Source of the DNA: a virus
Virus record (IMG/VR): IMGVR_UViG_3300021354_000007
Coordinates: 1-64,000 of that record
Direction: 5' to 3' (one strand)
Length of the DNA: 64,000 nucleotides
Part shown: positions 31,461-33,308 of the stretch, one piece after another
Position numbering within the stretch: position 1 is the stretch's first letter
How the letters are laid out: every line of letters starts with the position of its first letter
The notes under the pieces: generated by a model
What the model was told of the DNA's origin: nothing
What the model saw: the letters and a program-made list of their open reading frames with translations, nothing else
Database searches by the model: none
Translations under genes and position numbers: made by a program

Positions 31461-31668
31461 ATCACCAAATGAGTTTTCATTTTACATAGAATCCACTGCA
31501 ACTAAGAACAATATCAGTGTTGTCGATGTTATTATTGAATATTGCAAAGATAATTATATCGAACCAGAAGAAGTATCAAAGTTGATAAACAAATCATTGA
31601 AAGATAAGATTGAAATAAATTTCATCGATATGAACTTCTTACCTAAAAGTGCTTGTTTAGACGTATAA
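31453..31668 (+). CDS. 33: gp33-like late-transcription co-activator
   Basis: 71 residues. T4 gp33 (112 aa) links RNA polymerase to the sliding clamp at late promoters. The match covers its conserved part: FSFYIESTATKNNISVVDVIIEYCKDNYIEPEEVSKLI, then LKDKI and a C-terminal hydrophobic LDV that would touch the clamp. The N-terminal arm is shorter than in T4. Position before gp59 and gp32 matches T4 gene order (33-59-32). TAATG overlap with gene 59. Confidence 0.82.
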   Translation: MFESPNEFSFYIESTATKNNISVVDVIIEYCKDNYIEPEEVSKLINKSLKDKIEINFIDMNFLPKSACLDV

Positions 31669-32282
31669 TGGACGGGTTCACTGCATATAGATATTATCTT
31701 GCTGTTAAGTTGCATTTTACACGTGACTCTTATGACATATTCGAAAAACGTGGTGCAGTAAAATATTCCAGAGAACAATTCAATAAAAGAAATGATAAGG
31801 GTATTTTCGAAAAGGTAGCAAGGAAATATACAAAAGATAGTGATTTGATACAATACTACGTATCCAATATTGTATATGGGAATGATTCCCCTGTATATGA
31901 AATAGAAGAGTCTGAAAGATATTATCTTAACTGGATTAAAAGGAAAGAATCTATTACGCATACATTTAATAACGATTTGAGTGTTATAATAAACGATGCA
32001 TATAAAAATAAATTAGAAAAAGATTCTATATTGGGCTTTACTTTTAACCAACAACCAAGTATACTAACTCTGTTCCTTGGAAAACGTATCTCATTGGAGT
32101 CAGTATCAATTCTCAATGATTTTATCGGTCTTATAGATAAATGGGATTCATCGGGGTTTGTTATGAACTTATGGGAGTCGGAAATAAAAAGGATATATAA
32201 GTCCAAAAGATTTGTCAAATACGACAAAGAAAAGATTCGTCCTCTAGTCGATAAATTTCTTGAAGAACTAGAAGACTTATAA
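31668..32282 (+). CDS. 59: gp59-like helicase loader
   Basis: 204 residues, near the 217 of T4 gp59, which loads the gp41 helicase onto gp32-coated DNA. Shared pattern: MDGFTAYRYYLAVKLHFTRDSYD at the N-terminus, then FEKRGAVKYSREQFNKRNDK, and a C-terminal half with SILNDFIGLIDKWD. It sits between gp33 and gp32 as in T4. Start set at the ATG of a TAATG overlap. Confidence 0.85.
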   Translation: MDGFTAYRYYLAVKLHFTRDSYDIFEKRGAVKYSREQFNKRNDKGIFEKVARKYTKDSDLIQYYVSNIVYGNDSPVYEIEESERYYLNWIKRKESITHTFNNDLSVIINDAYKNKLEKDSILGFTFNQQPSILTLFLGKRISLESVSILNDFIGLIDKWDSSGFVMNLWESEIKRIYKSKRFVKYDKEKIRPLVDKFLEELEDL

Positions 32283-32283
32283 C

Positions 32284-32360
32284 CTAGTGACGTACTAGAC
32301 CAATTACGTCAATACTAAAATGATATTAAAACAATACTAAAACCATACTAAAATATAAGG
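32284..32360 (+). promoter_or_regulatory. Putative gp32 autoregulatory leader: pseudoknot plus A-rich repeats
   Basis: H-type pseudoknot: CTAGT (32284-32288) pairs with ACTAG (32294-32298); the loop GACGT (32289-32293) pairs with ACGTC (32306-32310); linker ACCAATT. It begins two bases after the gp59 stop. Then follow repeats of AATACTAAAA-type unstructured sequence up to the Shine-Dalgarno AAGG. T4 gene 32 mRNA has the same arrangement, where gp32 binds from the pseudoknot and blocks its own translation. Confidence 0.75.
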
Positions 32361-32369
32361 AAAATTAAT

Positions 32370-33278
32370 ATGTCTCTTGATATAGCAACATTGCGTAAAT
32401 CCCGTTCAACAGATTTTTCTAAAATCACTTCAGAATTAGACAAAATCGCAAATCCCCAATCTTCTTCTAGAAATGATGACCGTCTATGGAAATTAGAAGG
32501 TGATAAAGCAGGTAATGGTACTGCTACTATTCGGTTTCTACCACGTGTAGATGGTGATGAATATGAATTACCATGGGTCAAATTATTTACACATGGTTTC
32601 CAAGGTCCAACTGGTAAATGGTACATCGAGAATTCTTTAACTACTATTGGTAAAGATGATCCTGTAGGTGAATTGAATACTCAGTTATGGAACTCTGGTA
32701 CAGAAGCGAATAAAGAAATTGCACGTAAACAAAAGCGTGGTCTTTCTTATTATGCAAACATTCTTGTTATTTCGGATCCAAAACATCCTGAGAATGAAGG
32801 TAAAGTGTTTATCTTTAGATTCGGTAAAAAGATTTTCGATAAGATTATGGATAAAGCAAAACCAACTTTCGAAGACGAATTACCTGTAAACATATTCGAT
32901 TTTGATGAAGGTGCAAACTTCAAATTCAGAATGCGTAAGGTTGCTGGGTATTCTAATTATGACGAGTCCGTGTTCTCCGAACCTGTTGCAATTACAAAAG
33001 ACGATAACGAATTGTTAAGAATTATGAATAGTCGACATAATTTACAAGAATTAGTATCTCCGAGTAATTTTAAAACATATGACGAATTGAAGAAAAAACT
33101 TGATTCAGTATTATCGGGAGATTCATTTACACCAAAGACTGCTGAACAAATCGCAGAGGAGTTCGATGTCGCTCCTGCTCCGACGTTTGTGAGTAAACCT
33201 GCACCTGTGCCAGTAAGTGCTGTGGTGGATGATGACGATGATTTAGATTATTTTAAAAATCTGGCTTTAGATGACTAA
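32370..33278 (+). CDS. 32: gp32-like single-stranded DNA-binding protein
   Basis: 302 residues (T4: 301). N-terminal basic LRKSRSTDF region for cooperativity, the OB-fold core (ATIRFLPRVDGDEYELPWVKL, KWYIEN, FRFGKKIFDKIMD, FDFDEGANFKFRMRKV), and a very acidic C-terminus (VDDDDDLDYFKNLALDD) that recruits partners. The T4 zinc site (one His, three Cys) is not conserved: the protein has no Cys at all, the region reading ENSLTTIGKDDPVGELN. Likely controlled by the pseudoknot leader upstream. Confidence 0.92.
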   Translation: MSLDIATLRKSRSTDFSKITSELDKIANPQSSSRNDDRLWKLEGDKAGNGTATIRFLPRVDGDEYELPWVKLFTHGFQGPTGKWYIENSLTTIGKDDPVGELNTQLWNSGTEANKEIARKQKRGLSYYANILVISDPKHPENEGKVFIFRFGKKIFDKIMDKAKPTFEDELPVNIFDFDEGANFKFRMRKVAGYSNYDESVFSEPVAITKDDNELLRIMNSRHNLQELVSPSNFKTYDELKKKLDSVLSGDSFTPKTAEQIAEEFDVAPAPTFVSKPAPVPVSAVVDDDDDLDYFKNLALDD

Positions 33279-33284
33279 AAAGAG

Positions 33285-33308
33285 AAGGGGACTTTCGTCC
33301 CCTTTTTT
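33285..33308. terminator. Rho-independent terminator between convergent genes
   Basis: AAGGGGAC (33285-33292), loop TTTC, GTCCCCTT (33297-33304), T-run 33303-33308. The upstream A-rich side gives a matching T-rich tail on the other strand, so it may serve gene 32 and the convergent tape-measure operon. Confidence 0.9.

Follow-up and report, generated by a model that had tools for sequence, protein, structure and literature searches.

The window analyzed here, i.e., the whole 64-kb stretch of DNA, itself a portion of a 67.9-kb viral record, carries genes 59 and 32 in tandem, separated by a short leader (Table 1). In this leader, a candidate H-type pseudoknot begins at position 32284, one base past the gp59 stop codon, and is followed by four phased A-rich repeats and a Shine-Dalgarno sequence. 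Together these elements (32284–32361) occupy the gene 32 5′ leader and adjoin its ribosome-binding site (ATG at 32370), the location of a T4-type operator. All of the strings from which the initial annotation had built its pseudoknot (CTAGT, GACGT, ACTAG, a linker, and ACGTC) were found in place.

Table 1 Features of the gene 59–gene 32 region, in window coordinates.
Feature	Position	Strand	Basis
Gene 59 (helicase loader)	31668..32282	+	ORF; Pfam PF08993; stop TAA 32280–32282
Stem 1, 5′ strand, CTAGT (CTAG in the 4 + 6 register)	32284..32288	+	Sequence; pseudoknot scan
Stem 2, 5′ strand, GACGT / GACGTA	32289..32294 (GACGT 32289–32293)	+	Sequence; scan
Stem 1, 3′ strand, ACTAG / CTAG	32294..32298	+	Sequence; scan
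Loop 3 (L3), ACCAATT, 6–7 nt	32299..32305	+	Scan
Stem 2, 3′ strand, ACGTC / TACGTC	32305..32310 (ACGTC 32306–32310)	+	Sequence; scan
Four 11-nt ATAC/ATAT-TAAAA repeats, proposed gp32 loading track	32311..32354	+	Periodicity (0/2000 shuffles); ATAC spacing across leaders
Shine-Dalgarno AAGGA, 8 nt 5′ of ATG	32357..32361	+	Sequence
Gene 32, cysteine-free ssDNA-binding protein, proposed repressor	32370..33278	+	ORF, ATG 32370; Pfam PF08804
Intrinsic terminator, 3′ of gene 32	33281..33308	+	Predicted

The predicted pseudoknot spans 27 nt (32284–32310), close to the ~28 nt of a T4-type operator knot, and can be drawn in two near-equal registers: 5 + 5 bp without loop 1 (L1; stacking score −16.0), or 4 + 6 bp with a 1-nt L1 and a 6-nt L3 (−15.6). 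The latter should be easier to build, because L1 must cross stem 2 and has zero length in the 5 + 5 register. Scores were obtained with a scanner using Turner stacks and no pseudoknot penalty, and the same scan recovered the operator knots of T4 and RB69 as positive controls. Dinucleotide shuffles never matched the score of the window knot, either for the whole leader (0/1000) or for its 29-nt core (0/5000), and when stem 2 was kept constant, 187 of 20,000 shuffles of the other bases rebuilt a stem 1 matching that of the window in strength. Overall, the pseudoknot, as a predicted fold, exceeds chance for its composition. Across the window, 49 of 1470 tiles of 87 nt (3.3%; both strands, no composition matching) reached −15.5 or better, so that, taken by itself, the knot stands out only moderately in this genome.

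Immediately 3′ of the knot lie the units AATACTAAAAT, GATATTAAAAC, AATACTAAAAC, and CATACTAAAAT (32311–32354), identical to each other at 8–10 of 11 positions and containing UAAAA or UUAAAA in the RNA; both unit and period differ from those of T4. None of 2000 shuffles equalled this periodicity. Three or four repeats of an ACTAAAA type had been recognized at the outset; their presence is confirmed, and their number and form are revised to four 11-nt units in exact phase.

The succession of pseudoknot, unstructured A-rich repeats, and ribosome-binding site had been likened to T4, and the same scan returned this order in the T4 and RB69 leaders. On the T4 operator, which is proven, gp32 nucleation starts at the knot and binding then extends across the UUAAA units as far as the ribosome-binding site, and RB69 has a similar knot-plus-repeats leader between genes 59 and 32 on which both RB69 gp32 and T4 gp32 act as repressors (PMC535899). 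The window resembles T4 (and T2) in combining an H-type pseudoknot on the 5′ side, unstructured reiterated A/U-rich units on the 3′ side, a Shine-Dalgarno sequence, and gene 32, and RB69 in the placement of knot and repeats between genes 59 and 32. The dimensions of stem 1, L1, stem 2, and L3 are also similar (4/1/7/5 in T4; 4/1/6/6 or 5/0/5/7 in the window). However, the likeness is one of anatomy, and the leader is not a recognizable sequence homologue of the T4 operator: the window knot has different letters and no evident similarity to the T4 knot, the repeats are 11-nt AUACUAAAA units instead of UUAAA, the distance from the end of the knot to the AUG is 59 nt as opposed to 39 nt in T4, the leader directly follows gp59 without segG, and the window gp32 lacks zinc ligands. 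Similarly, the RB69 operator region is ~70% identical to that of T4 whereas the window operator sequence is unrelated, and the window gp32 is ~40% identical to its RB69 counterpart. In T4, RNase E cleaves just upstream of the knot, at −71. The site size of T4 gp32 is 7 nt (PMC10484735), which the 11-nt period of the window does not match. Rfam yielded no meaningful match for the operator region, and blastn of 32000–33200 against a phage collection gave alignments only inside gene 32 among the 60 matches listed.

The ligands of the T4 gp32 zinc domain are His64, Cys77, Cys87, and Cys90. The window gp32 contains zero cysteines, i.e., equivalents of Cys77, Cys87, and Cys90 are absent, and it therefore has no T4-type zinc domain; likewise, Cys77 and Cys90 are absent from 186 of the 198 gp32s compared. 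Going by its title as listed in PMC535899, a 1991 T4 study reported the zinc domain to be essential for translational repression. Either RNA recognition works differently in zinc-free gp32s, or autoregulation is missing from some of these phages, and a cysteine-free gp32 offers a handle on whether repression needs zinc generally or in T4 alone.

Given that the parts stand in the same order as in T4, a T4-type mechanism is the best explanation here: with a probability of about two-thirds, we propose that the 59–32 intergenic region is an autogenous translational operator bound and repressed by gp32, T4-like in action, with a diverged RNA and a zinc-free repressor. The short H-type pseudoknot just past the gp59 stop would form the first docking site of gp32 on its mRNA, from which further monomers would load cooperatively, 5′ to 3′, along the four unstructured 11-nt ATAC-TAAAA units; gp32 would then cover the Shine-Dalgarno sequence and block ribosomes once free gp32 exceeds the available ssDNA. 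In favor of such an operator are the non-random knot and repeats, the replaced stem 1 of the nearest relative, the phased repeats of many other gene 32 leaders, and the precedents of T4 and RB69. Against the operator stand the occurrence of the knot in two independent leaders only (see below), the missing zinc ligands, the 3% of tiles that score alike, and the discrepancy between 11 and 7 nt.

The nearest leader was shared by two contigs, IMGVR 3300042328_000726 and 3300042891_000398 (L082/L210), whose gp32 and gp59 are 83% and 79% identical to those of the window. Directly after the gp59 stop, L082 reads ATTTCCG-G-TGGCGTT-A-CGGGAAT-GATAGTAAAC-AACGTCA, and the scan predicts a pseudoknot in the homologous place, with a 7-bp stem 1, a 1-nt L1, and a 7-bp stem 2. 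Stem 1 is composed of different letters (ATTTCCG/CGGGAAT in L082 vs CTAG/CTAG in the window). Stem 2 has its core letters in common with the window, ACGTCAATACTAAAA at its 3′ strand being identical, and differs by a two-sided A-U to U-A change and a one-sided A-U to G-U change; these letters are partly shared by descent, and stem 2 is therefore not independent evidence. With stem 2 fixed, an equally strong stem 1 arose in 32 of 20,000 shuffles of the remaining bases of L082, and in 320 of 20,000 for the T4 leader. Pairs were compared explicitly, since MAFFT, applied to the three clade leaders, misaligns stem 1. In L289 (gp32 76%, gp59 64%), the homologous stretch TTTCTGGTGGCGACTGGAA would instead fold into a plain 9-bp hairpin with a GGCG loop, in which just GCG/CGC is left of stem 2; this fold is insignificant (395 of 3000 shuffles), and the repeats are kept. 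No knot was seen in the L212–L217 group (gp32 72%), where gp59 extends through most of the leader. Complementary changes in both stems, the initial test of the pseudoknot, were thus encountered in L082/L210 (stem 1 rebuilt, a double change in stem 2) and not in L289 or L212–L217, which leaves two independent leaders only. The knot is supported within a two-member clade (support 0.94) and altered or lost outside it. Queries with gp59 and gp32 in two genome-contig scans found no relatives, a pattern scan of viral contigs for ACGTCAATACTAAAA returned mostly unrelated sequences and, as gene 32 loci, the two L082/L210 contigs only, and the same type of scan for ATTTCYGGTGGCG gave no further close relative.

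Across T4-type phages, knots of T4 geometry scoring −13 or better were detected in 14 of 199 non-redundant gene 32 leaders vs 38 of 1990 shuffles (1.9%). Convincing knots were those of T4, RB69, Klebsiella phage 15882-3, the window, L082/L210, and L321 (identical to L079), and in the scan the knots of T4, RB69, and this Klebsiella phage, a Jiaodavirus, all had a 7-bp stem 2 and a 1-nt L1. RB49-type leaders, like most leaders sampled, have no knot whereas the window does; for RB49, sources disagree, with UUAA units described as conserved (PMC535899) or no A+U-rich sequence reported (PMC3014915). The pseudoknot is hence patchy among T4-type phages. Because almost all sampled lineages outside the knot clades are knot-free, inheritance from T4 is not to be assumed; the gp32s of the window and T4 are separated by 2.6 substitutions per site, and the knot has more probably arisen separately or been lost repeatedly than descended directly. 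The initial suggestion that the architecture of T4 is kept is partly supported: the layout stands, with the knot in two independent leaders, and the proposed repressor, being cysteine-free, differs from that of T4. The knot in the leader of Klebsiella phage 15882-3 (L318) has the T4 geometry (4/1/7/5) but other letters, and, as in T4, CAACTGTTAA comes next. In L079 (identical to L320/L321), a small ORF separating genes 59 and 32 contains a predicted 7 + 7-bp H-type pseudoknot with one G-U pair, which lies 115 to 78 nt 5′ of gene 32 and just downstream of a promoter-like TTGACA/TATAAT. The L047/L328 leader also has a candidate knot, set aside as possibly due to chance because its pairing differs from that of the neighboring L079.

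The repeats were surveyed in 190 non-redundant gene 32 leaders outside Straboviridae. ATAC occurred 530 times at −75 to −8 (216 expected), the spacing of successive ATACs peaked sharply at 10 nt (81 pairs vs 3.0 expected), 167 pairs lay at a lag of 9–11 nt (10.5 expected), and AAGG was enriched near the repeats. At least two phased units were present in 121 of the 190 leaders vs 1 of 105 control starts, i.e., other gene starts with a Shine-Dalgarno sequence on the same contigs. The repeats, more than the knot, are thus common to distant T4-type phages, and the phased array is the wider and better-supported finding, for which we found no description in the open-licence papers searched. An array with a clear period in very diverged phages represents a common element open to testing. 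This distribution can also be read as an operator made of the phased repeats alone, in which the 5′ fold, hairpin or knot, would be loosely conserved and would insulate the leader or stabilize the mRNA, the pseudoknot form being incidental. Repeats in most sampled leaders, the low frequency of T4-geometry knots, and the hairpin of L289 all agree with it; the complete H-type knot that the window and L082 both place in the same position, with stem 1 replaced, does not, and we regard this reading as unlikely.

Alternatively, the A-rich repeats might be an unstructured, translation-enhancing ribosome site for an abundant protein, with no gp32 feedback. They do lie directly 5′ of the Shine-Dalgarno sequence with AAGG enriched nearby, and a zinc-free gp32 may not repress. 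However, phased units are nearly confined to gene 32 in the control comparison above, and leaders without ATAC carry other tandem units in the same place, AATCC(A/G) in L317, L436, L447, L457, and L474 or TCGTTTACAA in L124, with AATCC units found in S-H9-1-like phages. Such alternative units are more readily explained by a binding array than by base composition, and an enhancer without feedback seems quite improbable. That the four A4 tracts phased at 11 bp in the window bend DNA, and act at the DNA level on a promoter or replication, is hardly credible, since at least three phased A4 tracts occur in 1 of 190 leaders vs at least three phased ATAY units in 83 of 190, i.e., curvature is not the conserved feature.

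Extending the gp32 operator beyond the window is more tentative: it is possible that, outside Straboviridae, gene 32 is controlled by a phased array operator of ATAC-type units every 9–11 nt and a zinc-free gp32, the 5′ pseudoknot serving as an optional aid to nucleation, gained or rebuilt independently in the window’s clade. If true, gp32 would recognize repeat spacing and not a fixed sequence or zinc-dependent fold. How a non-specific ssDNA-binding protein recognizes its own mRNA is a stated open question, as is whether T4 relatives lacking the pseudoknot autoregulate at all (PMC535899). An extra layer may come from gene 59: with the knot one base from the gp59 stop, a terminating ribosome would be expected to open it, possibly coupling gp59 translation to gp32 derepression. 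In L213, L215, and related leaders, the array is partly coding, since the gene 32 repeats overlap codons of a C-terminal gp59 extension.
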